In this document: positions 449 to 31,167 of the stretch, piece after piece
How positions within the stretch are numbered: position 1 is the stretch's first letter
Layout of the letters: every line of letters begins with the position of its first letter
Source of the DNA: Desulfobacteraceae bacterium
GTDB taxonomy: Bacteria; Desulfobacterota; Desulfobacteria; Desulfobacterales; JAJDOA01
Direction: 5' to 3'
NCBI GenBank assembly: GCA_022340405.1
Contig: JAJDOA010000373.1
Span: 1-36,084 of the forward strand
DNA length: 36,084 bases
Program-made: the position numbers and the translations under genes
The notes under the pieces: generated by a model
Told to the model about the DNA's origin: nothing
Database searches by the model: none
What the model saw: the letters and a program-made list of their open reading frames with translations, nothing else

Positions 449-1183
449 TCAGCGGCGCCGGGAGCTCTTTCTCTGCTGGCGCCGCTGCTTTTTCCATTCT
501 TTTTCCTTCCTTCGCTTCCCGTGCGCTGCTCCCGCCAACTCCTTTTCCAGGTCCATGAAAAAGCTTCCCGGGGTTTTGGGTTTCTCCGGCGCTTCCGGCT
601 TTTTCGACTTGGACGGCACTGCAGGCTCTTTGGGCAGGGGAGGCGCGGTGAAGGAACCTACCGGCAGCCGGTCCGCCAGATAGACACCGCCCCCCGCCGC
701 GTAAAAGACAACATCCATGGCCTCGGCCGCAGCGGTCTGCACGGTGAGCATCACAGGCTCCCGGTCGATGCGCCCTCCAATGCGCAGGGCCGTATCCGTC
801 TCGGAGGAAAGCACCACCCAGTCCTCACCGGAGGGATGCAGTCCTTTTTCCACCACGTGCGGATGAGCCCTTTGCCGCACGCATGTGAACAGCAGTTTGG
901 GAACGGCATCGGCCGGTTCGGGCAGACCCAGGTTTGCGCGCTCCCGGGCGCGGATGCGGTTGTCTTCGATTTCCACAGGAGGGTCCTTTACAACCAGAAG
1001 AACCTCGTCGAGGGCAGCCCGGCGCACATGCCGCCATCCCTCCTCTTCGTGCAGCGACTTGAGCAGGTCCTTGACCTTGACCCAGCCGTTCGCGTCGGGC
1101 ACCAGTCCGAATTCCCAGGGCTTGCGCCCCAGGATGTAGTCCAACAACTTGGCAAGCTGTTTGGGGTCTTTTGGGTGCGCCAC
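449..1183 (-). CDS. KptA/Tpt1-like RNA 2'-phosphotransferase homologue with altered active site
   Basis: The 244-residue product keeps the KptA/Tpt1 layout: an N-terminal winged-helix-like part (LAKLLDYILGRKPWEFGL, then NGWVKVKDLL at 32-41), the IRAR motif (77-80), and an ADP-ribosyltransferase-like half with GLHPSG and GGVYLADRLP (165-174). Known members remove the splice-junction 2'-phosphate from RNA using NAD+. Here the family's Arg-His pair after the first helix is Gly19-Arg20, and the usual HVHL strand reads WVVL (122-125), so normal catalysis is doubtful. The C-terminal 60 residues are proline/lysine-rich and end in a strongly basic tail, which suggests nucleic-acid binding. The GTG start at 1183 was chosen over an upstream ATG because AAAGGAG sits ten bases before it. 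The family relation is fairly sure; the activity is unknown. Confidence 0.7.
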   Translation of the reverse strand: MAHPKDPKQLAKLLDYILGRKPWEFGLVPDANGWVKVKDLLKSLHEEEGWRHVRRAALDEVLLVVKDPPVEIEDNRIRARERANLGLPEPADAVPKLLFTCVRQRAHPHVVEKGLHPSGEDWVVLSSETDTALRIGGRIDREPVMLTVQTAAAEAMDVVFYAAGGGVYLADRLPVGSFTAPPLPKEPAVPSKSKKPEAPEKPKTPGSFFMDLEKELAGAAHGKRRKEKEWKKQRRQQRKSSRRR

Positions 1184-1488
1184 GGGATCGCGTCTCCTTT
1201 CGATCCATGGGTGGCAGCCTTGGCTTCCGCCGCCGTCGAAAGGCCGTCCGCAAGCCGTACAAAGCCGGCCTCGAAGGTGGTCGAAAGGTTGATTCTCCAA
1301 AGGCCTTCTGTTACCTATCGAAGCGCGATCCGGTTGCCACATCGGCAGTTGGATAAAACATAATCATCATCCAAGGCATTTTCACTATCCGAGCGGGGAT
1401 CCGTTCCGGACCCGCGGCGAAACCCAACCCAGAAAAACGGGTTGCTCCGGCCGCCCTGTGCGGCACCGTCAGAAAGGACGCTACGCAT
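1184..1488. other. Intergenic region between divergent kptA-like gene and hemL
   Basis: This 305-bp stretch must hold the promoters of two diverging genes. Reading frames continue through it on both strands but lack family signal. Near 1334-1364 there is a TTGCCA and a downstream CATAAT with a 19-base spacer, a poor match to a sigma-70 promoter for hemL. The hemL ribosome-binding site is at its right edge. No RNA structure or repeat was recognised. Confidence 0.4.
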
Positions 1489-2805: not shown

Positions 2806-4797
2806 TTATTCGTTGCGGGCGTCGGCGGGCAGAATGCCGGCAAGGTGAGGAAACGGGTCGCTCATGTGGGGCATGTGGATGGCTTCGATGAGCTGCTCCT
2901 GAAAGTCCTCCATCAGCGTCAGTTCGACGTATTCCACACTGCGGGCGATCCGGTCGGCTTCCACACGCTTTTTGCGGTCCAGCAGTGCTATGCGGCATCC
3001 GTCCCCGGCTGCATTGCCGATGGCGGAGACGCGATCCAGCGGGCAGTCCGGGAACATTCCCAGCACCATGGCGGCCAGGGGGTCCAGATGGTTGCCGAAG
3101 GCGCCGGCAATCTGGATACGATCGGGGCGTTCCAGGTTCGTGCGCTGCAGCATCAGCTTGCATCCGGTGTAAATGGCCGCCTTGGCCAGCTGGACCTGCC
3201 GGATGTCCGCCTGGGAAATCGTGACATCCCTGCCAATGGCGGTCTCTTCCGACCGCGCGACGACAAACTCCAGCATCCCGGCTTCCTCATTTTGCCGCAG
3301 CCGCCCCGTCTGAATGTCCGGGACGAAGGCGCCGGTCCGGTCGACGATACCGGCCTTGAGAAATGCGGCGACCGCGTCCACAATGCCGCTGCCGCAAATC
3401 CCCTTGGCCATCATTTCCTCGGGATTCGATTGACTGCGCCACTTGTCCCTGCCGACCACCTTGTAGTCGACGGCAAGGGAATCCGCTGCAACCTGGACCC
3501 GCTCGATGGCGCCGGGGGCGGCCCGCATGCCAAATTCGATTTGAGCGCCCTCCAACGCCGGTCCGGTGGCACAGGAACAAGTGCTGCAAATCCGCCGGTC
3601 GTGATTGCCCAGGACCAACTCACCATTGGTGCCGATATCGACAATCAGCACCGTGTCCGGACTGTTGTGCGGCTCTTCCACCAGCATTACGCCGACATTG
3701 TCGCCGCCGACGAATCCCGACTCGTTCGGCAGCAGGTAGACCCGGGCGGTCGGATGGACGCGCAGTCCCATCTCTCTCGCCCTGGTGCACAGCCCGGCCT
3801 GGTTGGCGGGTGCAAACGGGATCGCCCCGAGGGGTTCGGGATCCAGCCCCAGCAGCAGGTGGTGCATGGTCGTGTTTCCGCAGATGCTGACATCCACGAT
3901 ATCCTCGCACCGGATGCCGCCGGAACCGAGGACCGCCTCCGACTGGGCAACGGCCTTCTCTATGATTCGATTCAGCCCTCCGATCACGGCTTCGTTCAGG
4001 CGGGCCAAGCCGTCGGAGTGGTTCAGATGATAGTCGATGCGGGAGATCACGTCCTCGCCAAACTGAATCTGCGGGTTCATGGAGGAGGCCGTCGCCACCA
4101 CCGCACCGGTTTTCAAGTCGCACAGGTAACCGGCAAGGGTCGTCGTGCCGACATCGACGGCCAAGCCGTAATGGGCCGGGACCACACCGGGCTGGACACG
4201 GACGATTTCCCGATCCATCCATACGCTGACGGTCAGCGTCCGCTGCCCTTGACGCAGGCATTGCTGCAGGCCCCGTAGCGCGTGGATATCGATGGTCAGC
4301 CCCGTTACGCCATGGGTGCCCTCCAGCGCCAGCAACACCCGCTCCAGGTCGGCGGTGGGCTCGGACAGAGAGGCCTCTCCAACGGTGACGGGGTAGATTT
4401 GCACCGCCGGATCGCAATCGATGTCGATCGGCCGGGCCTCCTTGCTCACCACCTGCCTGCCCGGCCGGGATTCTTCCGGAACGTAGATGACCAGATCCCC
4501 GGTGACACGCGCGGCGCAGGCCAGCCGGTACCCGGCGGCTTTTTCTTCCGGGGAGATGTGTTCTCCCTCCGCCTCGTGCCACGGGCCGGCGTTTTCTCTT
4601 GCCGATTCGATGCCGTACTTGTCGAACCGTCCGGATTCCACCAAAACCCGGCACTTGCCGCAGATCTGGTGCCCGCCACACAGCGCCTCGATCCCCACAC
4701 CGAGGCTTCTGGACGCCTCCATGACCGTGGCGCCCCGCGCCACCCTCCCCCTGCGCCCCGAGGGCTGAAAGATCACCTCAGGTTCGTCGTTTTCCAT
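2806..4797 (-). CDS. RACo-type reductive activator of corrinoid proteins (2Fe-2S ferredoxin + ASKHA ATPase)
   Basis: The 663-residue protein starts with a 2Fe-2S ferredoxin domain whose ligands are Cys40, Cys46, Cys49 and Cys94. A linker follows, then an ASKHA-type ATPase domain of the DUF4445 kind beginning at GLAVDVGTTTLAGYL (about 211-225), with further glycine-rich phosphate loops such as VDIGTNGEL and GICGSGIVD. Family members use ATP hydrolysis to drive one-electron reduction of Co(II) back to Co(I) on corrinoid proteins that have been accidentally oxidised. It is the last gene of the methyltransferase operon, 35 bases after the MttB stop, with GAGG eight bases before the ATG. The two corrinoid proteins of the same operon are its natural substrates. 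RamA-type activators are a different family and do not fit this sequence. Confidence 0.92.
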   Translation of the reverse strand: MENDEPEVIFQPSGRRGRVARGATVMEASRSLGVGIEALCGGHQICGKCRVLVESGRFDKYGIESARENAGPWHEAEGEHISPEEKAAGYRLACAARVTGDLVIYVPEESRPGRQVVSKEARPIDIDCDPAVQIYPVTVGEASLSEPTADLERVLLALEGTHGVTGLTIDIHALRGLQQCLRQGQRTLTVSVWMDREIVRVQPGVVPAHYGLAVDVGTTTLAGYLCDLKTGAVVATASSMNPQIQFGEDVISRIDYHLNHSDGLARLNEAVIGGLNRIIEKAVAQSEAVLGSGGIRCEDIVDVSICGNTTMHHLLLGLDPEPLGAIPFAPANQAGLCTRAREMGLRVHPTARVYLLPNESGFVGGDNVGVMLVEEPHNSPDTVLIVDIGTNGELVLGNHDRRICSTCSCATGPALEGAQIEFGMRAAPGAIERVQVAADSLAVDYKVVGRDKWRSQSNPEEMMAKGICGSGIVDAVAAFLKAGIVDRTGAFVPDIQTGRLRQNEEAGMLEFVVARSEETAIGRDVTISQADIRQVQLAKAAIYTGCKLMLQRTNLERPDRIQIAGAFGNHLDPLAAMVLGMFPDCPLDRVSAIGNAAGDGCRIALLDRKKRVEADRIARSVEYVELTLMEDFQEQLIEAIHMPHMSDPFPHLAGILPADARNE

Positions 4798-4832
4798 GGA
4801 TGGCTACCTCGCGAAGGGCATCCGCCGGCCGG

Positions 4833-6266
4833 TTACTCCCAGTGTTCGGCCATTCGATCCAGCTCTTTTCGCTTTTCCTCCGGCAACATCCGCTCGTGAT
4901 GCTCCATCTGCTCCAACGTCTGCTCTCGCAGTCGCTCCTCGAAACGCAGGCCGCCGTGTTCGAGCCAGGAAACGTAGTTGGATCGATCGAACATGTTCGA
5001 GTACCAGACTTCCCGAAAATGCTCGGCGGTGTGGTCTTCCTGCATGAAGTGCCCCCCGGGCCCCACGTCGTGGATCACATCCACTGCCAGGTGTTCGTCA
5101 TCGACTTGTATGCCGCGGGTGATGGGGGCAAGCATGTCGAGCACCTCGTGCACCAGCACCATAAAGGCCGGGGAGGCCAGGCAGCCGTGATCGAGAAGGC
5201 CGCAGTCGTGAATCAGGTTTGCGCCGCTGAGCGCGGCCGACATGCACGACATGGTCGCTTCGGCGGCGGCTTGGGAATCCGGCAGCTTGGCGTCGGAGCA
5301 TCCGGCGGTTCCGAAATAGGGCAGCTTGAAGTGTTGGGACATCTGCGCCAGGGCGGCCCCCATCAGGATCATTTCCGGAGCGCCGTAGGAGAAGATCGTT
5401 GTGCGCATGTCCATGACGGTTGCGAACGCACCATAGATGAATGGGGCTCCCGGCCGAACCAGCTGAGTGATGACCAGGCCGATCAACGACTCGGCGGTTC
5501 CCTGCACGATGGATCCGGCGAATGTGGCCGGGCCGGTGCTTCCCGCCTGCGGCGCTCCGTAGCAGATCTGGGGAATCCGCTTCTCGGCACAAAAGATCAT
5601 TTTTTCCAGCGTGTCGTCGGTAAGCATCAGGGGGGAGATGGGGTCGGCGAGCATGACGATGGAGGGGGCGTTCAAAAACTGTTTTTCGTCGCCGGCAATG
5701 ACCAGGGCCATTTCATAGATGTCTTTGAGGCTGTTGATGTCCTTGCAGCAAAAAACCATGGGTTTTTCGCTGTAGGTCAGGGCCTCCTTGAGCACCAACC
5801 GGTCCGACAGGTCCGGAGGCACGTCGCTGGCCAAACCGAACGTCATGCCCCATTGGTAGTTGGGGAGGTTTTCGAGCAGCGAGGCCGTGGTGCGGCAGTC
5901 TTCGAGACGAAACTTCCGGCGCTCCCCCGTGGCCGGCTCCAGGTAGTCGAGACAGTCCAGACTGGGGCCGAACCAGCTCCGGTTGCGTTCGAGCTTCACG
6001 GTCCGCTCGCCGCTGCGTGTTCCCAAAACGACGCGCGAAGGCGCACGGTTGAGGGCATCCTTGACCAGGGAATCGGGGATGCGGACCCGGTCACCGTCGA
6101 CCCTGGCACCGGCGTCCAACAGAAGATCCAACGATCTCTGATGGGTGATTCTAACGCCGGTGCGTTCCAGAACCTCCATGGTGGCCATGTAGACGTCCTC
6201 AACCTGCTCGGACTGGAGCACATTGAGACGCGGCTTCCTTCGGATGTTGAATCGACTCGTTGGCAT
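4833..6266 (-). CDS. MttB-family (trimethylamine methyltransferase-like) corrinoid methyltransferase 1, non-pyrrolysine
   Basis: The 478-residue protein has the MttB signatures: a FNIRRKPRL-type N-terminus, GSTGPATFAGSIVQGTAES, the FSYGAPEM segment, TAGCSDAKLPDSQAAAEA, and a C-terminal DVIHDVGPGGHFMQEDHT stretch. MttB-fold enzymes demethylate methylated amines onto the Co(I) of a partner corrinoid protein. The frame is uninterrupted, so there is no in-frame amber codon and no pyrrolysine. This places it with the betaine, carnitine and proline-betaine type demethylases rather than true trimethylamine MttB. GGAGG five bases upstream fixes the start at 6266; the longer frame to 6422 would overlap the GntR gene. 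It is the third methyltransferase of the operon, between a GntR gene and the activator, and has no corrinoid gene immediately beside it. The substrate is unknown. Confidence 0.92.
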   Translation of the reverse strand: MPTSRFNIRRKPRLNVLQSEQVEDVYMATMEVLERTGVRITHQRSLDLLLDAGARVDGDRVRIPDSLVKDALNRAPSRVVLGTRSGERTVKLERNRSWFGPSLDCLDYLEPATGERRKFRLEDCRTTASLLENLPNYQWGMTFGLASDVPPDLSDRLVLKEALTYSEKPMVFCCKDINSLKDIYEMALVIAGDEKQFLNAPSIVMLADPISPLMLTDDTLEKMIFCAEKRIPQICYGAPQAGSTGPATFAGSIVQGTAESLIGLVITQLVRPGAPFIYGAFATVMDMRTTIFSYGAPEMILMGAALAQMSQHFKLPYFGTAGCSDAKLPDSQAAAEATMSCMSAALSGANLIHDCGLLDHGCLASPAFMVLVHEVLDMLAPITRGIQVDDEHLAVDVIHDVGPGGHFMQEDHTAEHFREVWYSNMFDRSNYVSWLEHGGLRFEERLREQTLEQMEHHERMLPEEKRKELDRMAEHWE

Positions 6267-6330
6267 GCCCGCCTCCACGCCGGTGGTCGGCGCCGACGGC
6301 ATTTTCGGCGCCCAACACGGAATAGCCCTG

Positions 6331-6978
6331 TTAGTCCTCGCTCCGCAGAAGGCTTCGCACCCGGTCATAGAATGCCCCAACGTGCCCGCGCATGATCCGC
6401 TCGGCACGATCGGCGTCTCCATCCCGGACGGCCTCCAGCATCTCCAGATGCTCGGCTACGGCACCATGTAGAAAATCCAGCTTCGGCAGCGTCAGAAACC
6501 ACAGGCGCTGAGACAGACCGAACAGATGCTCCAGACTGCGGGCCAGATACTTGTTTCGGGCCGCCCGGATCAGTGCCTGATGGAATTTGTGGTCGATATC
6601 CAGAAGACGTTTGCTGTCTTGGGGATCGGTGGCCAGCTGCTCCTTGCGCAGCGCCTCCAGAACCGCAAGGTCGTCACGATCGGCGCGCTCTGCCGCCAGT
6701 CGGGCGCAAACGGGTTCCAGGGCCAGCCGCATTTCACTGAGCTGTTCGAGATCGGGAAGGCTGATATCGGCCACATAAAGCCCGTGACGCGGCGTGATGA
6801 AAACCAATCCGTCATGGGTCAGCAGCTTCAATGCCTCCCGTACGGGGAAGACGCCGGTCTCGATCTCCTCGGCCAGCTCCTGTTCGTTGATCAGCGCGCC
6901 GGGCTTCAGCGCAAGGGTGACGATCTTTTCGCGGATCACCGTGTAAGCATGTCGGGTATCGACTTCGATCAACTCCAT
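6331..6978 (-). CDS. GntR-family transcriptional regulator, FadR/FCD subfamily (internal to operon)
   Basis: The 215-residue protein has a winged helix-turn-helix (about 8-70, with LNEQ-like and VREALKLLTHDGLV elements) and a C-terminal helical FCD ligand domain. The FCD metal-site residues look complete: Asp129, His133, His177 and His199. Members are usually repressors released by a small carboxylate ligand. AGGAGG eight bases before the ATG at 6978 decides the start; an upstream in-frame start at 7026 has no comparable site. The gene sits inside the methyltransferase operon, between the HyuA-like gene and the third MttB, an unusual place for a regulator. An intercistronic promoter or operator near 6979-7080 is possible but was not identified. 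Confidence 0.88.
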   Translation of the reverse strand: MELIEVDTRHAYTVIREKIVTLALKPGALINEQELAEEIETGVFPVREALKLLTHDGLVFITPRHGLYVADISLPDLEQLSEMRLALEPVCARLAAERADRDDLAVLEALRKEQLATDPQDSKRLLDIDHKFHQALIRAARNKYLARSLEHLFGLSQRLWFLTLPKLDFLHGAVAEHLEMLEAVRDGDADRAERIMRGHVGAFYDRVRSLLRSED

Positions 6979-7080
6979 GCGGAGTTCCTCCTGCCGCGTT
7001 GACGCGGGTCCCGCCGACATCGGCATCCGAGGCTGCGTCGGGGCAGGCCCCGAAAGGCGAACATCGCCCGCGGCCTTTGG

Positions 7081-9108
7081 CTATAGGGACCGATCGACGG
7101 GAGCGAGTCGCGGGTTGCCCATCGCACGGGCGCGGATGCGGTAGGTATCCAGCCCGTCCGTTTTTTCTTCCATGGCCACCTGCGGGTTGTCGGCCCCCGA
7201 GCGCAGGGCTGCGCCCAGCGCTCTTTCCCGGCTTAGTTTGCGGGCGTTTGCCAGCGCGTCCTCCAATTCGTCGAAAAGCTGCCGCTCCTCCTTGGCCTGG
7301 ACATAATAGCCGATGGCTTCCAGTCCGTCTGCGGCGACCCGCGGATATACAATGATCTCCTCGGCCACCATGATCGTGCCGGCCACCGCGCCCACGGCAT
7401 TGGCAACCGGATGATGGTCGGGCAGGATCAATTTCGTGTAAAGGATATCGGCCACATTTTCAAGAAAGATTCTCGCCGGCGCACCGATGCCGATGATCGG
7501 AAGAGACAGCTCGAATCGCGTGCGCAGATGGGGATGGACGTTGCGCAAACTGTTGAGAAAGAACCACTGACCGATATCGCCGCCTTTTTCCATCTCGGGC
7601 GGCGGGGGGAGGGTTTTTTCGGACAGGAAGCAGACGATGGCGTGAACGATTGCCTCCGTGATCATCGATCGGACGTGAAGGGAAAACGCCTCCGGATCCC
7701 ATCGTTTGCAGCGGGAAAACACCCGCAGGGCCGTCGCCGCCGCCTCTGTGTTCCAGGCAGTATAGACCCCCTCGGTATGGAGCAGATCGGTGGGGGTCAG
7801 CCCCGCTCGGCCGATGAGCTCGTGGCGATCCAAATGGTCGGTTCCGATCTGAACCCTGCTGATCAGGCCCAGCCGATCGAGAATCTCGGGAAGCGGCTTC
7901 GGCCCGTCCGACAGCATGGCCAAAAGGGCCTTTTCCTGTGCGCTTGCCGGAGAGGCGGCTCCGGTGGGCTCCCGCAAAAGAAACCAGAACTCCAAAGCCT
8001 CCGGATCGATTTTCGATGCTTGCCGCTGGTTCAGCCCTTTGAGGTGGGACATGACGCCCGGGTGCTGATCCGCCAGGTAGGCGAGGGGCACCACCCGTTC
8101 CGGCCCGATGGTCACCTCATTGTCCCGTGCCAGGCGGATGTGACTGTCCCCGCCCAGGGCGATGGAAAACAAGTCGGCGGCCTTGACCGCCGTCTTGTAT
8201 CCGGACACGGTGGCTCCTTCTTCGCTGACGGTGACCTGCCCTCTTTCAATGAGGGCGAAATCGGTGGTGGTGCCCCCGATGTCGACCACCAGGGCTTTGT
8301 CGAGCCCGGACAGAAAGCGCCCGCCGATAGCGCTGGCGGCGGGCCCCGAGTGAATCGTCTCCACCGGTGTCGCCGCGGCGAACTCGTCGCTCATCAACGT
8401 GCCGTCCCCGCGCACCACCATCAGCGGCGCCACGATATGCTTCCGCTCCATGGCGCGGCGCACGGCCACGATGAAGTCCCTGAGCACCGCTAGCAGCGAG
8501 GCGTTCAGCGCCGCCGTCGTGGCGCGCTCCACCGAGCCAAGCTTGGTGGACAACTGATGCCCGAGAACCACGGGCAGATCGCAAATGCCGGAAATGGCCT
8601 GGAAGCAACGGTGCTCATGCTCCGGGTTCAGCGGGCTGAAGTAGCTGGACACCGCGATGGCATCCACCTGGTCCTTGATGGAAGCGACTTTCTCCAGCAC
8701 GGCGGGAAGATCCAGCGGCGCCTTCTCCTGCCCGTACAGATCGTGTCCCCCGGAAAAATAGTAATAGTGCTGCGTGGCAAAACGGGCTTCCATCCGGAAA
8801 GAGGCCACCAGATCCGGATCGTAGCCGATCAGCAGCAGGGCGACGCGCTTGCCCTTGCCCTCGGCGATGGCATTGGTGGCCAGGGTCGTCGACACCGAAA
8901 CCATCCGAACTGCAGACGGGTCTTCGATGCGGATGCCCTGGATCACCGATTCGATGCCGATGGACAGGTCCCGTTTGGTGGTCAGACTCTTGTGTGCGGC
9001 CCGAACCTCGCGCGAATGGTACTCCATGAGGATGCCGTCGGTGTAGGTGCCACCGGTGTCGATCCCCAGCACCAGCGCGTCGCTATGAGAACGGTTGTCT
9101 GTGGTCAA
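7081..9108 (-). CDS. Hydantoinase/oxoprolinase-family ASKHA ATPase (HyuA-like), no HyuB partner
   Basis: The 675-residue protein has the HyuA fold signatures. The N-terminal phosphate loop is LGIDTGGTYTDG (about 14-25), followed by VSVSTTLATNAIAEGKGKRVALLL. A second phosphate loop reads VVDIGGTTTDFALI, preceded by IHSGPAASAIGG. HyuA proteins couple ATP to opening of hydantoin or oxoproline rings, normally together with a HyuB subunit, but no HyuB gene is present here. Its place in the operon, 18 bases after an MttB stop, suggests a role in handling the methylated substrate or in activating corrinoids; both are inference. The annotated start is TTG and no strong Shine-Dalgarno precedes it, so translation may be coupled to the upstream MttB. 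The family call is firm; the reaction is unknown. Confidence 0.85.
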   Translation of the reverse strand: MTTDNRSHSDALVLGIDTGGTYTDGILMEYHSREVRAAHKSLTTKRDLSIGIESVIQGIRIEDPSAVRMVSVSTTLATNAIAEGKGKRVALLLIGYDPDLVASFRMEARFATQHYYYFSGGHDLYGQEKAPLDLPAVLEKVASIKDQVDAIAVSSYFSPLNPEHEHRCFQAISGICDLPVVLGHQLSTKLGSVERATTAALNASLLAVLRDFIVAVRRAMERKHIVAPLMVVRGDGTLMSDEFAAATPVETIHSGPAASAIGGRFLSGLDKALVVDIGGTTTDFALIERGQVTVSEEGATVSGYKTAVKAADLFSIALGGDSHIRLARDNEVTIGPERVVPLAYLADQHPGVMSHLKGLNQRQASKIDPEALEFWFLLREPTGAASPASAQEKALLAMLSDGPKPLPEILDRLGLISRVQIGTDHLDRHELIGRAGLTPTDLLHTEGVYTAWNTEAAATALRVFSRCKRWDPEAFSLHVRSMITEAIVHAIVCFLSEKTLPPPPEMEKGGDIGQWFFLNSLRNVHPHLRTRFELSLPIIGIGAPARIFLENVADILYTKLILPDHHPVANAVGAVAGTIMVAEEIIVYPRVAADGLEAIGYYVQAKEERQLFDELEDALANARKLSRERALGAALRSGADNPQVAMEEKTDGLDTYRIRARAMGNPRLAPVDRSL

Positions 9109-9126
9109 TGGTCGTGCCGCACGATA

Positions 9127-10629
9127 TCAGACAAACATCTTGACGTCCAGTTCCTCGTCCTTGTGGCGGGCGTCCGCCAATTCACAGACGCGGCGCAGCT
9201 CCTGGTACATGGCGTCGTCCAGCAGCGGTTCGGTTTCGGCCTCCAGGATTTCGACCACGCGATCGTGGACGCGCTCTCCGTAACGCTTGCCGCCGGCCAT
9301 GTTCCAGTTTTCCCAGTTTTGCCGGTCGATAAGCTTCGGGCGCCAGATCTCGGTCTTGAAGCGTTCGTAGGTGTGGTCGTGCTCCATGAAGTGACCGCCT
9401 GGGCCGACCTGCTCCATCACATCCAGGGCCATGGCCTCGGGGGTAACCGGAATTCCCTGAAGGATGCGCTTGACCATGTCGATCATCTCGTCGGAGGCGA
9501 CCATCAGCTCCGGGCAACTGGTCAGGCCGGAGTCGAGGTAGCCCACGTCGTGGATCATGTTGCCGCCGATAAGCCCTGAAGTCGCGATGTTGATGGCCCC
9601 CTCCATGGCGGCCTGCTCGTCGAACAGCTTGGCATCGGAGCAGCCCGCCGTTTCGTATTCGGGCACCCGCAGCCATTTGGTGATGTCCGTGTAGGCGGCG
9701 CTCAACAGGGCCATTTCCGGAGAACCATAGGAATAGATCGTCGAGAGCATGTCCATGTTGGACATCAAGCCGCCGATGATGATCTGGGCCCCGGGGTTGC
9801 GCAGCTGGCTGAGGACGATGCCGAAAAGGCTCTCGGCAAGGGCCTGCACGAGCAGCCCGGCCAATGTGGTCGGCGCGGTGGCACCTGCCAGCGGGCATGG
9901 TGTGTAGACGAACGGAATGTGGTTGTCGCAGCAGAACAGCAGCTTCTGAATGACTTCCTGGGAATGGCTCAGCGGCGACACCGGCTCGATGTACAGGGTG
10001 AAAATGGGGCCTTTTCGCCATTCCTCCTTTCCACCGACGCGGATGTAGGCCATCTCCAGCTGATCCCGGACGCCCTCGATGTCGACGGCGGTGATGTTGA
10101 TGGGCTTGCTGGTTCCCTCCAGCATGGCCAGATACTGCCAGCGGTCGTAGGTGCCGACCGCCGTATCCTGGGTGATTCCCAGCGACATGTGAAAGTCGTA
10201 GTTGGGCAGCGCCTGGGCGATGCGTGCACAGTTTTTTACGTCGTTGTAGGTGCTGCGCCGGCGCTCTCCGGTGTAGGGGTCTATGGTATAGGGTGTGTCG
10301 GATCCGCCGCCGTAGTAGATCTGGTTCTTGTAGAGCTCCATTCGGTGTTTCCGATCCGGACCGATCACCACCACCTTGCTGGGAACCGTGGCACGGGCCT
10401 TGTCGACCATGTAATGGGGCACTTTGACCAGACTGCTTTTCTCGGTGGTATCTTCGACAATGGCGCCTCCGGATTGGGCGACATCGACGCCCTCGCTGTC
10501 GTACACACGGACACCGGTTTCATACAGCACCCGGAGCGAAGCGTAATAAATGGCCTCTATCTGATCTTCACTCAACACCCGGAAGGTGGGTGTGGCGTTC
10601 ACGTCGTAATTGTGTCGGTTCACCATCAT
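9127..10629 (-). CDS. MttB-family corrinoid methyltransferase 2, non-pyrrolysine
   Basis: This is a 500-residue MttB-superfamily protein. Diagnostic segments are FRVLSEDQIEAIYYASLRVL near the N-terminus, GATAPTTLAGLLVQALAES, IYSYGSPEMALL, TAGCSDAKLFDEQAAMEGA, and DVMEQVGPGGHFMEHDHTYE near the C-terminus. No amber codon interrupts the frame. The expected role is transfer of a methyl group from a quaternary or tertiary amine to the Co(I) of the corrinoid protein encoded 40 bases upstream. The start at 10629 is chosen because AAAGGAG lies eight bases before the ATG; a second ATG follows directly, and the longer frame to 10779 would overlap the corrinoid gene. Among the three paralogues it has the longest C-terminal tail after the GGH motif. 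The substrate is unknown. Confidence 0.92.
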   Translation of the reverse strand: MMVNRHNYDVNATPTFRVLSEDQIEAIYYASLRVLYETGVRVYDSEGVDVAQSGGAIVEDTTEKSSLVKVPHYMVDKARATVPSKVVVIGPDRKHRMELYKNQIYYGGGSDTPYTIDPYTGERRRSTYNDVKNCARIAQALPNYDFHMSLGITQDTAVGTYDRWQYLAMLEGTSKPINITAVDIEGVRDQLEMAYIRVGGKEEWRKGPIFTLYIEPVSPLSHSQEVIQKLLFCCDNHIPFVYTPCPLAGATAPTTLAGLLVQALAESLFGIVLSQLRNPGAQIIIGGLMSNMDMLSTIYSYGSPEMALLSAAYTDITKWLRVPEYETAGCSDAKLFDEQAAMEGAINIATSGLIGGNMIHDVGYLDSGLTSCPELMVASDEMIDMVKRILQGIPVTPEAMALDVMEQVGPGGHFMEHDHTYERFKTEIWRPKLIDRQNWENWNMAGGKRYGERVHDRVVEILEAETEPLLDDAMYQELRRVCELADARHKDEELDVKMFV

Positions 10630-10669
10630 GATTCGCTCTCCTTTTGGTGAGGCGTTGCGATACGTCGAC

Positions 10670-11311
10670 TCAACCGGCTTCGATGAGATTCCGTGCCACC
10701 TCCGCACCGGATACGGCATTGTGGCCGTAACCGTCGGCCCCGATTCTTTCCGCAAATTCGGCGTCCACGGGGGCCCCACCGACCATCACTTTGACCTTGT
10801 CCCGTAAGCCGGCCTCTTCGATCGCCTTGAGCGTGTACCCCATCGCACGCATGGTGGTGGTCAACAGGGCCGACATGGCCACGATGTCCGGCTGATGGGT
10901 CTTGATCGCCTCGGTAAACTTGTCGGGGGGCGCGTCGAATCCCAGGTCGACAACCTCGAAGCCGGCCCCTTCGCACAACATGCCGACCAGGTTTTTTCCG
11001 ATGTCGTGCAGGTCCCCCTGCACGGTGCCGATGACGATTTTGCCCGCACGGCCCGCCTTGTCGCCGGCCAGCAGCGGCCGGAGCAACTCCTGACCGCCGT
11101 GCATGGACTTGGCGGCTCTCAGCACCTCGGGAATGAACATCTGGGCGGCTTTGAAGCGCTTGCCGACTTCGGCCATTCCGACGATCAGACCGTTTTGCAA
11201 GATCGTCTCCGCCTCCTGCCCCTCGTCCAGTGCCTTTTGCACCAGCTTTTCGACCCCCTGGATGTCTCCCCCAATGATCCCTGTGGCAATCTGCTCGAGT
11301 ATTTGGCTCAT
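10670..11311 (-). CDS. Corrinoid-binding methyltransferase protein 1 (MtbC/MttC-like)
   Basis: This is a 213-residue two-domain corrinoid carrier. The N-terminal helical cap (about 1-85) is followed by a Rossmann-like B12-binding domain. The cobalt-ligand motif is D-L-H-D-I-G at 100-105, with His102 as the lower ligand; downstream are SALLTTTMRAMGYT and the VMVGGAPV loop. It carries methyl groups between an MttB protein and the methyl-THF methyltransferase. AAGGAG lies nine bases before the ATG at 11311. It sits between MttB 3 and MttB 2, so it may serve either. It resembles the second corrinoid protein of the operon closely through the DLHDIGKNLVGM region but differs at the N- and C-termini. 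Confidence 0.94.
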   Translation of the reverse strand: MSQILEQIATGIIGGDIQGVEKLVQKALDEGQEAETILQNGLIVGMAEVGKRFKAAQMFIPEVLRAAKSMHGGQELLRPLLAGDKAGRAGKIVIGTVQGDLHDIGKNLVGMLCEGAGFEVVDLGFDAPPDKFTEAIKTHQPDIVAMSALLTTTMRAMGYTLKAIEEAGLRDKVKVMVGGAPVDAEFAERIGADGYGHNAVSGAEVARNLIEAG

Positions 11312-11346
11312 ATCGACGTTCTCCTTTTCCAGACGGTGGTGGCAGC

Positions 11347-12810
11347 CTAGGACTTGTCCTTTACGCGCTCCTCGGCGGCTTCCATGATTTCGGCAATCGC
11401 TTTTTCGGTTTCCGGCCGCACCGGCGAAGGTTCGTGCGTCGCTGCGATTTCCCGCGTCCGCTCGACCACCCGGTCGCGCATGGGTTTTTGGCCGTCCGCA
11501 TCCCACTCCTCGAAATTGCGGCGATCGCATAGATTCGGGTACCAGAACTCGGTCTTGAAATGCCGCATGGTGTGATCGTGGTAGAGGTAGTGGCCGTCGG
11601 GGCCGACATCCTGAATCACGTCAACGGCCAGCGTTTCCTCGTTGACTTCGATGCCGCGGCAAATGCGTCGCGAATAACCGATGGCCTCGTCCATCATGAC
11701 GGTCTGGAGAATGGAACCGGTCATGCCGCTTTCGGTGTAGCCCACGTCGTGACAGAGATCGCCTCCGCTCAGGGCCGAGAAGAAAACCGAAAGGGAGCCC
11801 TCCAGCGAGGCCTGCTCGTCGAGGCACTTGGAGTCCGTGCAGCCTCCGGTCTGCCACAGCGGTATCCCGCAGTAGTGCGCCAGCTCCGTGGCGCCGGCCA
11901 TCATGAGGCTGAGCTCGGGGGCTCCGTAGGTGAGGATCATCGCACTCATGTCCATGACCGAGAGCACACCACCCATGAAAAACGGCAGACCGGGCCGAAT
12001 GGTCTGGGAGAGCACCAGTCCCATGAAAGACTCTGCCGTCGTCTGGATAATGATGCCCGCGGGCGTAACCGGCGCCGTTCCCCCGGCCAGGGCGCAGGTG
12101 GTAAAAATCACGGGAACCCCGTGCTCGGCGGCGAAAATGACCTTGTCCACGGCCTCGAAGGTGCTCACCAGAGGAGACAGGGGTTCGCAGTAGTGAACGT
12201 AGTTGGGCCGCTTTTCGAACGCCTCCTGCCCTCCGGCCTCGGCAACGGCGATCTGGTGAATGTCGTTGGAATCGTCCCACCCGTAGGACCACGCCACGAT
12301 GGGTTTGCTGGTTTTCGGAAACATGGTCGCAAACTCGTAGGAGGCGGCAAGATCCGTGTGAACGTCGCTGATCGTGCCCAGACTTTCGCAGAAGTCGATG
12401 TTGGGCAGCGCGTCGCACACGGTGGCTACAATGCGGGCATCGTCCCGCACGTACGGTCTGCGTTCCAACGTTTCGATGTCGATGAAATTCGGGGGCGTGG
12501 GACCGGGTCCGAAATGGGACCTGCCGGGGCCGATGTGGATGTCGTGTGCGGGGTTGCCGTCCCGGGCGTAAATCGTGAAGCTCCGGGGCGCCGTCGCCAG
12601 CGATCGCTTCACGACGTGCGGCGGGATCTGCACACGTTTGCCCTCCACCCGAGCCCCGGCACCCGCCAGGATTTCCCGGGCTCGATCGTGATGCACGTCC
12701 AGCCCGATCTTGTCCATCACATGCAGCACACCGTCGAACATCTCCTGCAGTTGGTCTTTGGAGAGCACTTCGAAGCGCACTCCGGAATTAACGCGATAAT
12801 TGGCTCTCAT
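11347..12810 (-). CDS. MttB-family corrinoid methyltransferase 3, non-pyrrolysine
   Basis: This 487-residue MttB-superfamily protein shows FEVLSKDQLQEMFDGVLHVM, GGTAPVTPAGIIIQTTAES, LTYGAPELSLM, TGGCTDSKCLDEQASLEGS and DVIQDVGPDGHYLYHDHT. The frame has no amber codon, so pyrrolysine is absent. It is the first MttB gene transcribed in the operon, between the two corrinoid genes, and AAAGGAG precedes the ATG by eight bases. The sequence differs from the other two paralogues in many substrate-facing stretches (for example the FGPGPTPPNFID region about 100 residues in), which suggests a different methylated substrate or a different step of one pathway. The role in methyl transfer to Co(I)-corrinoid is a family inference. 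Confidence 0.92.
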   Translation of the reverse strand: MRANYRVNSGVRFEVLSKDQLQEMFDGVLHVMDKIGLDVHHDRAREILAGAGARVEGKRVQIPPHVVKRSLATAPRSFTIYARDGNPAHDIHIGPGRSHFGPGPTPPNFIDIETLERRPYVRDDARIVATVCDALPNIDFCESLGTISDVHTDLAASYEFATMFPKTSKPIVAWSYGWDDSNDIHQIAVAEAGGQEAFEKRPNYVHYCEPLSPLVSTFEAVDKVIFAAEHGVPVIFTTCALAGGTAPVTPAGIIIQTTAESFMGLVLSQTIRPGLPFFMGGVLSVMDMSAMILTYGAPELSLMMAGATELAHYCGIPLWQTGGCTDSKCLDEQASLEGSLSVFFSALSGGDLCHDVGYTESGMTGSILQTVMMDEAIGYSRRICRGIEVNEETLAVDVIQDVGPDGHYLYHDHTMRHFKTEFWYPNLCDRRNFEEWDADGQKPMRDRVVERTREIAATHEPSPVRPETEKAIAEIMEAAEERVKDKS

Positions 12811-12888
12811 CGATGGGCTCCTTTCCCGGCAACCGCTGTTTCCAACCTTCGGCGGCTTTCCGGTCCGAACGGACGGCCGAGAGACGGG

Positions 12889-13530
12889 TTAGCGGCTGTT
12901 GGCAATCAACTCCTTGGCCTTGTCGGCGGCGGCGGCGGCATCCGGCGCGTAGGCGACGCCGATCTTGTCTGCAAACGCCTGGCTCACCGGCGCCCCGCCG
13001 ATCATGATCTGCACCCGATCGCGGACACCGGCTTCCTCCAGGGCTTTTACGGTGTCTCCCATCGACCGCATGGTGGTCGTCAGCAGTGCCGACATGCCGA
13101 CGATATCGGGCTCGAATTCCTTTACGGCTTCGACGAATTTCTCCGGCTCCACGTTGATTCCGAGATTCCGAACCTCAAAGCCCGCTCCCTCGCACATCAT
13201 GCCGACCAGGTTTTTCCCGATGTCGTGAAGGTCTCCTTTCACCGTGCCCAACAGCACCTTTCCAACCATGGAAATCCCTTTTTCCACCATCAGGGGCTTG
13301 ATGACTTCCATGACATTGAGCATGGCACGCGCAGAGCGCATGACTTCGGGCACGAACACCCTGCCCGCCTTGAATTCGACGCTGACGTAATCCATTCCGG
13401 GCATCAGCCCTTTGTAGAGGATGTCCTCGGCACCGGAACCCTCGTCGATGGCCTGCTGGGCGATCTGAGCGATTTCGTCCTTCTTGCCCTGCATTACCGC
13501 TGTGGTGATCTGCTGTAATATCTCGCTCAT
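12889..13530 (-). CDS. Corrinoid-binding methyltransferase protein 2 (MtbC/MttC-like)
   Basis: This 213-residue corrinoid carrier has a helical cap domain (about 1-85) and a B12-binding Rossmann domain. The base-off/His-on motif is D-L-H-D-I-G at 100-105 (His102), with SALLTTTMRSMGDT and the IMIGGAPV loop downstream. It should shuttle methyl groups from an MttB protein to the MtgA-like enzyme. A strong GGAGGTG lies before the ATG at 13530. It is the second gene of the operon, directly after the methyl-THF methyltransferase and before MttB 3, an arrangement that suggests these three form one working set. It is the same length as corrinoid protein 1 and collinear with it, indicating duplication. 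Confidence 0.94.
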   Translation of the reverse strand: MSEILQQITTAVMQGKKDEIAQIAQQAIDEGSGAEDILYKGLMPGMDYVSVEFKAGRVFVPEVMRSARAMLNVMEVIKPLMVEKGISMVGKVLLGTVKGDLHDIGKNLVGMMCEGAGFEVRNLGINVEPEKFVEAVKEFEPDIVGMSALLTTTMRSMGDTVKALEEAGVRDRVQIMIGGAPVSQAFADKIGVAYAPDAAAAADKAKELIANSR

Positions 13531-13625
13531 CCATTCACCTCCTTTCGTTTCGATAAATGCGGCCGTCTTAGGACATCCTTTTCGACCGCAATCGGTGTGA
13601 ACCGGCCCTTGCCTTTCCTATTCGA

Positions 13626-14492
13626 TTATGCGGACTGCTCCCGTTCGCGAAATGCATCGATCCAGCGCATGGTCCATTCGTCTTTTCCCATCACAAGATC
13701 GGCGGCCAGAATGGCAATCCCCAACTCCGCCGCCAGTGGATTGGTGATGGGACACGTCAGTCCGGCGTGGATGGCCATGGCGATGAAAGCGGTGTTGATG
13801 TAGGGTCGATCCGGAAGCCCGAAGGAAACGTTGCTAGCGCCCATGGTGATGTTGACGCCGAATTCACGGACGACTTTTTCGATGGTGTCCAAGGTGACTT
13901 TGGCGGCATTGTGGTCGGCGCCCAGGGTCAGCACCAGAGGATCGATGACGACGTCCTCTGCGGGGATGCCCAGACGGCCTGCGCGCTCGATGATTTTTTC
14001 CGCCACGGCAAACCGCTCTTCCGCTGTGGGCGGAATGCCGGCGTCATCCATGCAGAGCCCGATCACGGCGGCGCCGAACTCTTTGACACGGGGCAGCATC
14101 TCTTCAAGCGACCGCTCCTCGCCATTGACGGAATTCACGAGGGCCTTGCCCTCATAAACGGAAAGGGCGGCGGAAAGCGCCTCCGGATCCGCCGTGTCGA
14201 TGCAGAGCGGCACATCCGTGACCGCCATTACGTTGCGCACGGCCGCTTCGAGCAGGACCGGCTCGTCTCCGTCCGGGATGCCCGCATTGACGTCGAGCAC
14301 TGCCGCGCCCGCCGCCACCTGGTCTACGGCGTCCCGTCGAACGATGTCGAAATCCTTGCGCTCCAGAGCCGACTGCAGTTGCTTGCGTCCCGTTGGATTG
14401 ATGCGTTCACCGATGATGACGGTGGGCTGATCTCTTCGGATGGTGACGGTGGTGCTCTTGGAGGAAAGGGTGGTGGTCAGGGGTTCGCTCAT
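13626..14492 (-). CDS. Methyltetrahydrofolate:corrinoid methyltransferase (MtgA/AcsE-like)
   Basis: This 288-residue pterin-binding TIM-barrel protein shows IGERINPTG (27-35), the DVNAG strand (67-71), LCIDTAD (97-102) and NVSFGLP (221-227), all typical of the family that moves methyl groups between corrinoid proteins and tetrahydrofolate. In amine-demethylating systems such enzymes take the methyl group from the corrinoid and make methyl-THF for the Wood-Ljungdahl branch; the direction here is inferred from the gene context. It is the first gene of the operon, 112 bases downstream of a cobalamin riboswitch. Its Shine-Dalgarno GAGAGGTG is complementary to a segment just after the riboswitch. 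MetH pterin domains and dihydropteroate synthase are related, but length and motifs favour the MtgA/AcsE type. Confidence 0.9.
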   Translation of the reverse strand: MSEPLTTTLSSKSTTVTIRRDQPTVIIGERINPTGRKQLQSALERKDFDIVRRDAVDQVAAGAAVLDVNAGIPDGDEPVLLEAAVRNVMAVTDVPLCIDTADPEALSAALSVYEGKALVNSVNGEERSLEEMLPRVKEFGAAVIGLCMDDAGIPPTAEERFAVAEKIIERAGRLGIPAEDVVIDPLVLTLGADHNAAKVTLDTIEKVVREFGVNITMGASNVSFGLPDRPYINTAFIAMAIHAGLTCPITNPLAAELGIAILAADLVMGKDEWTMRWIDAFREREQSA

Positions 14493-14493
14493 G

Positions 14494-14590
14494 TCGCACC
14501 TCTCATCGGTTTGGATTACAGGTGAAAGGACTGGTTCGGAAACCAGGCGTACACAAAGATGGTTGGTTCACCTTGATCCGCGAGGTGCAA
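14494..14590 (-). promoter_or_regulatory. Candidate riboswitch expression platform (SD-sequestering hairpin)
   Basis: Between the riboswitch and the mtgA-like start codon the minus-strand RNA can form nested helices. The outer arm TTGCACCTC (14590-14582) pairs with GAGGTGCGA (14502-14494), which contains the Shine-Dalgarno; the nine pairs include one G-U. A middle helix pairs AGGTGAA (14573-14567, minus strand) with TTCACCT (14526-14520), and an inner hairpin CTGGTT-TCCG-AACCAG lies at 14546-14531. This would block ribosome binding. No T-tract follows, so translational rather than transcriptional control is the likelier mode. How the aptamer switches it was not resolved. Confidence 0.6.
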
Positions 14591-14604
14591 CAAACAAATC
14601 CGGC

Positions 14605-14783
14605 ACAGGCAGGTCTTCTGACTTCCCGACCCTGCCGGCAGCCTTCCCGTCTTCTCGCAATGAGACAGTGGCGACAAATGCCGGCAGAGGCACCAGTGGC
14701 TGCGGCAACATGGACGGGATCACAGCGGCGGGCCCGTTTCCGATTCACACGGAATTCCCTATTATGCTACGGCGAGCACCTGG
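14605..14783 (-). promoter_or_regulatory. Cobalamin riboswitch
   Basis: On the minus strand this reads as a class-I-type cobalamin aptamer. It has a 5' closing arm CCAGGTGCT, a GGGAATTCCGTGTGAATC segment, the conserved GCCCGCCGCTGTGA core, a CCACTG element, GAGAAGACGGGAAGGC, and the 3' box GGGAAGTCAGAAGACCTGCC whose ACCTG closes the P1 stem with CAGGT. It lies upstream of the nine-gene corrinoid methyltransferase operon. Cobalamin riboswitches usually lower expression of B12 synthesis or uptake genes when B12 is present; here the regulated genes consume corrinoid cofactor. The recognition is strong; end points are accurate to about ten bases. Confidence 0.93.
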
Positions 14784-14971
14784 ACCGGCGCGAAGGCACC
14801 GAGAACGGTCCTTCGACTGGAGCCAAAGATCGGTTGGCCGATAGGCCAGGCCAAATTGGTCTGATGAACTGATCAACAGGTTGACAGATGTATGTCGATT
14901 GTGTCAAGAAAAAAATGAAACGGGATCGATCCACCCAACCCGACAGCGGAGAAAGGAAACTTCATCGCCTC
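14784..14971. promoter_or_regulatory. Divergent promoter/operator region between corrinoid operon and GntR gene
   Basis: This region must hold promoters for both directions. Visible candidates are: an inverted repeat TTGGCC-N9-GGCCAA at 14834-14854; TGGTCTGATGA at 14857-14867, whose left half matches the TGGTC half-site known for FadR-type regulators; and TTGACA at 14881-14886, a good -35 box for the rightward gene but without a good -10. A TTGACA...TGTCAA inverted pair also starts at 14881. None of these is proven; they are the obvious places to look for binding of the divergently encoded regulator. Confidence 0.4.
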
Positions 14972-15700
14972 ATGACCTTTCGATCGATACAGAGGAGTTC
15001 GACTCCCGAGTTGGTGGCGCGGGAGATTCTCAACAGCATCGAAACCGGGCATCTCAAGCCCGGGGACAAACTGCCCACCGAGCGGGAGCTGACGAAAATG
15101 TTCGGTGTGGCGAGGTCCACCATCCGGGAGGCGGTTTCGGCCCTGGCGATGCTGGGGTATCTGGAAGTGGCGCAGGGACGCGGGACCTTCCTGCGCAAGG
15201 ATTTGAAGCTTGCCAATCCATCCGATTTCGCCCTGAGCGACATCCAGGCGGTGGCCAACATTCTGGACCTGGTCGAGGTCAGAGAAATGCTCGAGAGCAA
15301 CGTGGTCCGACTGGCAGCGGAGCGGGCCGACGCGGAAGACATCCATCTCATCCGCAAGACGGTGCTGCAGATGAAAGAGAGCGTCGACGATCTGGAAAGC
15401 TTCGTCAAACACGACTTCGAGTTCCATATCGCGCTGGCCCGAGCCACCGGCAACCGAATGATCTACGAGATGATGAAGCAGATCGTCGAGAACGTTCACC
15501 GTGAGTACGAAAAATTCATGCCGAAGGCGCTGTTTCGAAGAGATCAAGCGGCCTTGACGGCCGAGCGAATACTGACCAGCCTGGCAAACGGCGATGGAGA
15601 TGCGGCCGCGGAAGTCATGGCCGAACATTTGAATTTGGTCAACACGGAGCTGAAAAGTCTGATCCCCGATGTGGAGTGGATCCGGAAAAAGCGGATCTAA
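14972..15700 (+). CDS. GntR-family transcriptional regulator, FadR/FCD subfamily (divergent from corrinoid operon)
   Basis: The 242-residue protein has an N-terminal winged helix-turn-helix with LPTERELTKMFGVARSTIREAVSALAMLGYLEVAQGRGTF split over about 34-73, and an FCD effector domain. Of the FCD metal residues Asp148, His152 and His219 are present, but the middle histidine position appears to be a glutamate in the AERIL segment, so metal binding may be altered. Divergent placement from the corrinoid operon makes it a likely local regulator of that operon. Start choice is uncertain. ATG at 14972 gives the usual family N-terminus and leaves the TTGACA element at 14881 upstream; in-frame ATGs at 14888 and 14915 lack good ribosome sites, and AAAGGA lies rather far (about 16 bases) from 14972. 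Confidence 0.85.
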   Translation: MTFRSIQRSSTPELVAREILNSIETGHLKPGDKLPTERELTKMFGVARSTIREAVSALAMLGYLEVAQGRGTFLRKDLKLANPSDFALSDIQAVANILDLVEVREMLESNVVRLAAERADAEDIHLIRKTVLQMKESVDDLESFVKHDFEFHIALARATGNRMIYEMMKQIVENVHREYEKFMPKALFRRDQAALTAERILTSLANGDGDAAAEVMAEHLNLVNTELKSLIPDVEWIRKKRI

Positions 15701-23410: not shown

Positions 23411-23814
23411 TGTTCGGATCCTTTCAGCATGTCGAGATAAGCGTCGCGGTCCATCAAGGCATCCAGTTCGGAAGGATCGTCGGGTTTGACATCGATCATC
23501 CAACCGTCACTGTAGGGGGCTGTGTTCACCAGCTCCGGCGCATCCTCCAGGGCGCCGTTGACAGCCGTGATTTCCCCCGACACGGGCATGAAGAGCTCGG
23601 AGACGGCCTTGACCGATTCCACCGTCCCGAATTCATCTCCCTTTTTCAGACGATCGCCCGCCTGGGGAAGTTCGACGAAGACGATGTCGCCGAGCTGGTC
23701 CTGGGCATAATCCGAAATACCGACCCGCAGGACATCCCCCTGGGATTTGGCCCACTCATGATCTTCGGCGTACCGGACATCCTCGGGCAACTGCAGTTCG
23801 CTGATCTCCTTCAT
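23407..23814 (-). CDS. gcvH: Glycine cleavage system H protein
   Basis: This is the 135-residue lipoyl carrier of the glycine cleavage system. It shows EDHEWAK near the N-terminus, GISDYAQDQLGDIVFVELP (32-50), and the lipoylation site Lys69 in TVESVKAVSEL, followed by GEITAVNGALEDAPELVN. It shuttles the aminomethyl group between the P-protein and GcvT. AGGAGG precedes the ATG; the gene starts 19 bases after gcvT and overlaps gcvPA by four bases. Length and motifs are standard. Confidence 0.96.
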   Translation of the reverse strand: MKEISELQLPEDVRYAEDHEWAKSQGDVLRVGISDYAQDQLGDIVFVELPQAGDRLKKGDEFGTVESVKAVSELFMPVSGEITAVNGALEDAPELVNTAPYSDGWMIDVKPDDPSELDALMDRDAYLDMLKGSEQ

Positions 23815-23833
23815 ACATTCCTCCTTTTGGGCT

Positions 23834-28845: not shown

Positions 28846-29027
28846 TTTCTTCCTCCCTCTGCTGGTCTCTGGTTACAGGGCTTGTGCGATTCGGGTTTTG
28901 TTTCCAGATGGCTGGTTCCTGCGGGCTCCACAACACCGCGGCATGTGGTCCCGGCAAGGTCGACAACCCCTATATCACGGTATGGCCGCGACCGAAAGAT
29001 CGGCGCTTCTCCAATCCCAAAAGCGGC

Positions 29028-30221: not shown

Positions 30222-30226
30222 CCGTA

Positions 30227-31078: not shown

Positions 31079-31117
31079 GAATTCTCCTTGCAATGATATT
31101 CCCGCCTCAGAACCGAC

Positions 31118-31167
31118 TTGAAGACTCCCCGCCGCAAGCGACGGGGAATGCGCTCGCTGTTGCCGGG
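31118..31167. repeat. REP-like palindrome family R2, copy B
   Basis: The unit begins TTGAAGACTCCCCGCCGCAA and ends CGGGGAATGCGCTCGCTGTT. Stem CCCCG/CGGGG is extended by an inner CGC-AA-GCG. It ends one base before the stop codon of the MetE-core gene and nearly fills the gap to the AAA+ gene, where it could act as a terminator or processing hairpin. Confidence 0.75.

Follow-up and report, generated by a model that had tools for sequence, protein, structure and literature searches.

The 36,084-nucleotide stretch analyzed here (contig JAJDOA010000373.1 of a Desulfobacteraceae bacterium; its whole length is called the window) carries a genuine B12-dependent methyl-transfer operon of nine genes, in a sulfate reducer equipped with carbon monoxide dehydrogenase/acetyl-CoA synthase (dsrA and acsB are both present in its genome). 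Two of its three MttB paralogs, B1 and B2, each adjoin their own corrinoid protein, C1 and C2, and share four pocket residues, Glu-Cys-Cys-His (E-C-C-H), which suggest a metal site, probably for zinc, that would do the job of pyrrolysine (Pyl) in these proteins. With moderate confidence, we read the operon as a line for B12-dependent N-demethylation, most likely of dimethylglycine and then of sarcosine, in which the amine would be activated by a metal and its methyl groups transferred to tetrahydrofolate (THF).

All nine genes lie on the minus strand (14492–2806), with every frame intact, in the order A, C1, B1, C2, B2, HyuA-like, GntR, B3, and RACo, separated by gaps of 95, 78, 35, 40, 18, 54, 64, and 35 bases. 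Pfam and NCBIfam profiles upheld the family assignment of each of them. Gene A (13626–14492) encodes a methyl-THF:corrinoid protein methyltransferase of the PRK07535 type, similar to AcsE and MetH (Pterin_bind, 2.3e-27; PRK07535, 306 bits for a cut-off of 259). Both corrinoid proteins display the GDLHDIG motif, C1 (12889–13530) with B12-binding and B12-binding_2 domains and C2 (10670–11311) with B12-binding domains and MtgC_2 as its nearest model (229 bits). The three MttB paralogs, B1 (11347–12810; 322.9 bits), B2 (9127–10629; 324 bits), and B3 (4833–6266; 330.6 bits), belong to the MttB superfamily, as indicated by full-length matches to PF06253/COG5598 (cut-off 25), and share about 36% identity with one another. 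The remaining genes encode a HyuA-like ATPase of the ASKHA type without a HyuB partner (7081–9108; Hydant_A_N, 5.7e-33; Hydantoinase_A, 3.2e-27; a weak MutL match), a GntR/FCD regulator (6331–7026; FCD, 1.8e-30; GntR, 8.7e-14), and a reductive activator of corrinoid proteins with 2Fe-2S and RACo/DUF4445 domains (2806–4797; RACo_C_ter, 3.4e-87; Fer2), whose nearest NCBIfam model is AcsV (442.6 bits). An earlier reading of this stretch, made from its sequence only, had described such a single-strand operon with short gaps, three distinct uninterrupted non-Pyl MttB genes, two corrinoid proteins with a D-L-H-D-I-G motif, a RACo-type activator, a HyuA-like ATPase, and a GntR gene, all of which our searches confirm. 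It had also announced an MtgA-like enzyme; gene A is not MtgA proper, since it scores only 20 bits against the MtgA model (cut-off 550).

We aligned B1, B2, and B3 to the solved structures of MttB, in which Met249, Pyl334, and Tyr364 have been placed in the active site (PMC9842639), and of MtgB, in which N199 and H345 belong to the predicted betaine site (PMC6855144). A cysteine occupies the pyrrolysine position (334) in all three proteins. In B1 and B2, three further positions are fixed: a glutamate at MtgB N199, a cysteine at MttB M249, and a histidine at MttB Y364/MtgB H345. The set corresponds to E209, C239, C324 (the Pyl position), and H354 in B1, with codons beginning at 12186, 12096, 11841, and 11751, and to E214, C244, C329 (the Pyl position), and H359 in B2, numbered from the ATG at 10626. 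It is invariant in 26 B1 and 28 B2 orthologs, including relatives at 44–51% identity, with rare exceptions elsewhere (one ERCH and one KCCH). The same positions read D-A-C-H in B3 (D208, A238, C323, and H353) and E-G-C-H or N-S-C-H in other relatives, so that, judging from these alignments, the full E-C-C-H set is peculiar to B1 and B2 among the proteins compared.

In AlphaFold2 (AF2) models with mean pLDDT values of 83 and 79, the four residues are located at, or adjoin, the C-terminal ends of the barrel strands, and the predicted fold of B1 resembles MtgB and MttB (TM 0.84–0.86). Because the four residues are fixed at pocket positions, lie at strand ends in these models, and have a precedent in the methanol:corrinoid methyltransferase MtaB, in which two cysteines and one glutamate hold zinc in a TIM barrel (PMC6257451), we propose that they form a metal site, probably for zinc. 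The combination of ligands that would be expected of an MtaB-like site, a conserved Glu/Cys/Cys plus a His in a barrel pocket, is seen in both proteins. The proposed likeness to MtaB (2I2X) concerns the Glu/Cys-held zinc at the bottom of the barrel, above the cobalt; MtaB shows no detectable sequence relation to B1/B2 and a TM of about 0.20, and zinc is proven in MtaB only. The pyrrolysine MttB of Methanosarcina barkeri (PDB 7XCL/7XCN) shares the fold (TM 0.86) and has its reactive position at the same place, whereas in B1/B2 a cysteine replaces pyrrolysine, Cys, Glu, and His are added around it, and pyl genes are missing. We excluded pyrrolysine or selenocysteine at this position because the codons specify cysteine, B1, B2, and B3 contain no in-frame stop, and nothing in the genome exceeds the PylS cut-off; the three proteins also score 373–390 bits against the pyrrolysine-MttB model TIGR02369, under its cut-off of 525. 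A TAG reported in a B2-like frame of one genome (G559) lies outside the aligned MttB part.

In an MttB tree computed without the four pocket columns, MtgB-type proteins formed a single branch (support 100), and B1, B2, and B3 fell outside it, and apart from pyrrolysine-MttB, in three separate well-supported groups, which identifies them as three old clades on the sequence data. The phylogeny proposed by the sequence-only reading as a check on redundancy thus does not place its three paralogs in one substrate clade. The betaine demethylases that it expected do not appear either, as none of the three is in the MtgB clade and the glycine-betaine residues Y94, N199, R309, and F353 are not retained: Y94/N199/R309/H345/F353 of MtgB become P/E/W/H/G in B1, S/E/Y/H/G in B2, and L/D/F/H/G in B3. 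In comparison with the MtgB/MtgC/MtgA system of Desulfitobacterium hafniense (PDB 2QNE, 9YCE), the overall scheme is alike and the B1 fold gives a TM of about 0.85, but the window MttBs are only 27–29% identical to MtgB and the folate enzyme is of a different type. Because the B1 and B2 groups each include relatives at about 50% identity, the B1/B2 pair predates the split between the two genomic contexts described below.

One scan of named genomes with B1 as query yielded 27 loci, nearly all from Desulfobacterales and Chloroflexi and mostly 67–87% identical over the whole protein; none came from Firmicutes. Their recurring order is A-C1-B1-C2-(DUF1638)-B2-HyuA-(GntR)-(RACo), and the core C1-B1-C2-B2-HyuA is conserved over Desulfobacterales and Chloroflexi, which we report as new. 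The recurrence of the core order across two phyla, in numerous genomes, excludes a chance origin. B1 and B2 are nearly always found together, and the HyuA-like protein is a conserved part of the module (orthologs at 61–74% in core loci). The third MttB, B3, is an optional member: it was found in just three of the related clusters, and its orthologs are confined to the Delta 3 symbiont of Olavius algarvensis (L014, 76%) and to L068 (58%). DUF1638 proteins, which together with RamA-like proteins have been tied to B12 reactivation (PMC5764234, PMC12478193), are missing between C2 and B2 in the window and occur elsewhere in the genome. In the MtgBCDE system of Ruegeria pomeroyi and the split MetH of Phaeobacter (PMC12478193, PMC5764234), the pterin and corrinoid subunits are separate, as in the window, and relatives of the operon likewise have reactivation proteins of the RamA-like and DUF1638 kinds; unlike the window, these systems are aerobic, tied to methionine synthesis, and use an MtgB-type demethylase. 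A shared EamA transporter in the window and the Chloroflexi loci was rejected, the similarity not being significant, and annotated plasmids contained only distant MttB genes (up to 33%), none of the B1/B2 type.

Several neighborhoods bear on the substrate. Genes of the MtgB type (43–53% to MtgB) adjoin the module in seven loci (L015, L027, L028, L030, L031, L033, and L068), and in L068 SoxA- and SoxB-like sarcosine oxidase genes stand beside it (TIGR01372, 694 bits; TIGR01373, 388 bits). Within the class, 20 of 291 genomes contain B1 homologs, one set near 80% and another near 50% identity. In the 50% branch, C2-B2-B1 follow a homolog (~410 bits) of sarcosine/dimethylglycine methyltransferase (SDMT), with HyuA, ACT, RACo, DUF1638, A, and serA genes downstream and metK nearby. 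Because the SDMT model NF041675 also retrieved many unrelated methyltransferases at a loose E-value, we kept only matches above about 350 bits; these occur in 18 of the 291 genomes, as 14 stand-alone proteins and 4 fusions with glycine/sarcosine methyltransferase (GSMT), whose GSMT half was checked against the Methanohalophilus GSMT structure (E 4e-122). B1/B2-type genes accompany the stand-alone SDMT in 14 of 14 genomes, contiguous or nearby where the contig permits, whereas B1 was found in none of the four fusion genomes at the search threshold of this survey. GSMT is present in only five of the 291 genomes, the four with fusions and one other (G043), and thus missing from 13 of the 14 with stand-alone SDMT; the association of SDMT without GSMT with B1/B2 (Fisher p = 0.0016) is a strong lead, not proof. 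As the MtgB-type neighbors, the SoxA/SoxB-like genes, and the SDMT-without-GSMT pattern agree, they suggest that B1 and B2 handle glycine, sarcosine, and dimethylglycine. In the SDMT branch, B1/B2 may methylate glycine; demethylation is more likely in the branch of the window, given the absence of SDMT at E ≤ 1e-80 from its genome and the others of this branch, the FCD regulators, and the MtgB neighbors. The GSMT-SDMT fusions (~555 aa; L118, L119, L121, and L124) apparently provide one-gene betaine synthesis.

A cluster of similar make-up is on record, contrary to the novelty claimed by the sequence-only reading for such an operon. 'Candidatus Formimonas warabiya' DCMF (Peptococcaceae) contains nine genes (Ga0180325_114734-742), published in 2022 with proteomics, in the order corrinoid protein-MttB-corrinoid protein-MttB-HydA-MtgA-MtgB-OpuD-OpuD; the products of its C-B-C-B-HydA part rise 6–10 log2 units on glycine betaine, which DCMF breaks down via dimethylglycine to sarcosine, and partial copies occur in Sporomusa ovata and 'Candidatus Frackibacter' (PMC9768040). 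Both clusters encode three enzymes of the MttB superfamily, two corrinoid proteins, a HyuA-like protein, and a folate methyltransferase, and both follow the C-B-C-B-HydA order, with protein lengths of 210/485/210/488/668 in DCMF and 213/487/213/500/675 in the window. They differ in the third part, which in DCMF consists of MtgB and two BCCT transporters and in the window of B3, the AcsV-like RACo, and the inner GntR, together with a cobalamin riboswitch. Its authors leave the division of labor among the MttB proteins undecided, including which enzyme uses dimethylglycine (PMC9768040); our additions are the signature of pocket residues, the three clades, and the argument on substrate and direction. 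Methanolobus vulcani, which has MtgB, demethylates glycine betaine only once (PMC6855144), and this fits a module needed past dimethylglycine.

We propose metal activation for B1 and B2 because tertiary and secondary amines do not readily give up their methyl groups. The amine nitrogen of an N-methylated glycine would bind their metal, and Co(I) of C1 or C2 would attack its N-methyl group; A would then unload methyl-Co(III) onto THF, and the Wood-Ljungdahl pathway would oxidize or assimilate the methyl groups. RACo would re-reduce the Co(II) side product and so hold the cobalt as Co(I). The HyuA-like protein, whose weak likeness is to MutL, a B12-mutase helper, may be a second reactivase or provide the ATP drive for the harder demethylation, and B3 probably serves an upstream or additional substrate. 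The sequence-only reading had suggested that the three paralogs could successively demethylate one compound; this is supported for B1 and B2 by their near-universal pairing, their own corrinoid proteins, and their context, and finds no such support for B3. The glycine produced could feed the glycine cleavage genes at 20622–25096.

Several observations weigh against this N-demethylation line. The roles proposed for B1 and B2 come from context and sequence; the metal is deduced from residues, and AF2 confidence at the loops is only about 60–75. We found no BCCT-family betaine transporter in the genome and no MtgB-type gene within the window. The likeness to DCMF is judged from gene order and lengths, and DCMF stops at sarcosine, where two enzymes are one too many unless they act as a pair. 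The SDMT pattern draws on few independent lineages, namely a large family, an outlier, and two fusion families; G043 has GSMT as well as B1/B2, and the SDMT-like proteins, at about 410 bits, remain under the 550-bit equivalog cut-off.

Among other explanations, B1 and B2 might be metal dependent and use a different donor: trimethylamine or dimethylamine, as pyrrolysine-free substitutes for MttB/MtbB, a thioether such as a product of dimethylsulfoniopropionate, or a methoxy compound. The resemblance of the four residues to the zinc site of a methanol enzyme, the two enzyme-corrinoid pairs reminiscent of mttBC/mtbBC, and the lack of PylS speak for such donors, which we nevertheless consider unlikely because the SDMT/GSMT pattern, the SoxAB neighbors, and the MtgB neighbors all indicate methylated glycines. 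No MtaB was found in the genome. That all three MttB paralogs are ordinary demethylases of quaternary amines, serving three betaines and with cysteines of no special role, is rather improbable. Characterized non-Pyl MttB proteins do all use quaternary amines (PMC8604678, PMC12155760), and the DCMF cluster, annotated with three MtgB, is raised on glycine betaine; however, the three proteins lie outside the MtgB clade with R309, N199, Y94, and F353 replaced, the near-invariance of E-C-C-H is confined to B1/B2, and several loci already pair MtgB-type enzymes with B1/B2. An anabolic direction in the window too, with glycine methylated from methyl-THF into an osmolyte or precursor, would fit the reversible AcsE/MetH type of gene A and the genes tied to B1/B2 in the SDMT branch (SDMT and SerA, with MetK close by and GSMT mostly absent), but is very unlikely given the absence of SDMT at E ≤ 1e-80 from the window's branch and the catabolic look of the FCD-type regulators and the MtgB/transporter neighbors.

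Upstream of gene A, we identified a cobalamin riboswitch (RF00174; 14591–14798, minus strand), matched by cmscan as a full aptamer (model 1–189) at 87.7 bits and E 1.5e-20, for a gathering threshold of 31.5. Behind it, a long helix is predicted (14480–14602, minus strand; fold −40.6 kcal/mol, z −2.68), pairing 14601–14582 with 14502–14481 and masking the Shine-Dalgarno site (14504–14497) and the ATG (14492) of gene A. As the modeled helix can hide both, control of gene A translation by B12 is likely, with a possible translational OFF switch; no intrinsic terminator was found between the riboswitch and gene A. Conservation of the riboswitch across relatives was ruled out, as it is missing from nine of the ten related loci scanned, with a weak match in L026 only. 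A second, divergent GntR/FCD regulator (14888–15700, plus strand; FCD, 1e-26) is kept beside the operon in L013–L015 (58–61%). The sequence-only reading had missed both this gene and the riboswitch.

Elsewhere in the window, an FAD enzyme of the monomeric sarcosine oxidase/N-methyltryptophan oxidase family, near the operon (17527–18684, plus strand; PRK11259, 343.9 bits for a cut-off of 257), could act on N-methyl amino acids. The gcv genes (20622–25096, minus strand), in the order gcvT-H-PA-PB, make up a complete operon for glycine cleavage, in which the GcvT-like protein is unusually long (420 aa); among the relatives examined, we saw no such proximity to the methyl-transfer operon. Downstream of the operon lies a convergent hemL, and at 449–1342 (minus strand) a homolog of the RNA 2'-phosphotransferase KptA/Tpt1 adjoins a tRNA-Lys, in a sulfate reducer. 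The block at 26833–32250 (minus strand) encodes mostly proteins without a family around an AAA ATPase weakly similar to MadB (116 bits for a cut-off of 475), and one weakly similar to core MetE (33 bits).

The genome contains three more full-length MttB genes outside the window, plus fragments. L060 (G000:C99, 1–9000) has the look of an anaerobic cluster for (hydroxy)proline-betaine: an MtgB-type MttB (45% to MtgB) is accompanied there by a glycyl radical enzyme and its activase, by an aldehyde ferredoxin oxidoreductase, and by a protein of the enolase superfamily, possibly truncated, that is close to cis-3-hydroxyproline dehydratase. A second corrinoid cluster (G000:C248, 18.3–24.7 kb; L059, 6318–12726) has an A-like gene, a corrinoid protein, a RACo, and two more MttB proteins, whose Pyl position is taken by Ala and Ile. 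A degenerate fragment of a B3-like MttB (G000:C167, 3466–3801; L062, about 3.5–3.8 kb) contains an in-frame TAG; GntR genes flank it on one side and, on the other, a protein of 1000 aa resembling bifunctional proline dehydrogenase.

Many MttB-superfamily proteins lack pyrrolysine, and in the literature consulted their known substrates have so far been quaternary amines. B1 and B2 are a candidate answer to the anaerobic breakdown of dimethylglycine and sarcosine via metal activation, and E-C-C-H at the pyrrolysine site offers a motif by which this branch can be annotated in marine Desulfobacterales and Chloroflexi. The most interesting point therefore lies beyond what the sequence-only reading claimed, in a predicted metal-based, pyrrolysine-free transfer of methyl groups on or off simple amines. 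Possibly, though we put this forward tentatively, B1 and B2 found a reversible, metal-dependent MttB branch for tertiary and secondary N-methyl groups, which one lineage of sulfate reducers would use in place of GSMT to make dimethylglycine for betaine, with methyl-THF supplying the pair by way of a corrinoid protein. The SDMT-without-GSMT pattern suggests that such reverse chemistry may build osmolyte betaine while sparing S-adenosylmethionine; if B1/B2 do replace GSMT, B12 and not S-adenosylmethionine would carry two-thirds of the betaine methyl groups.

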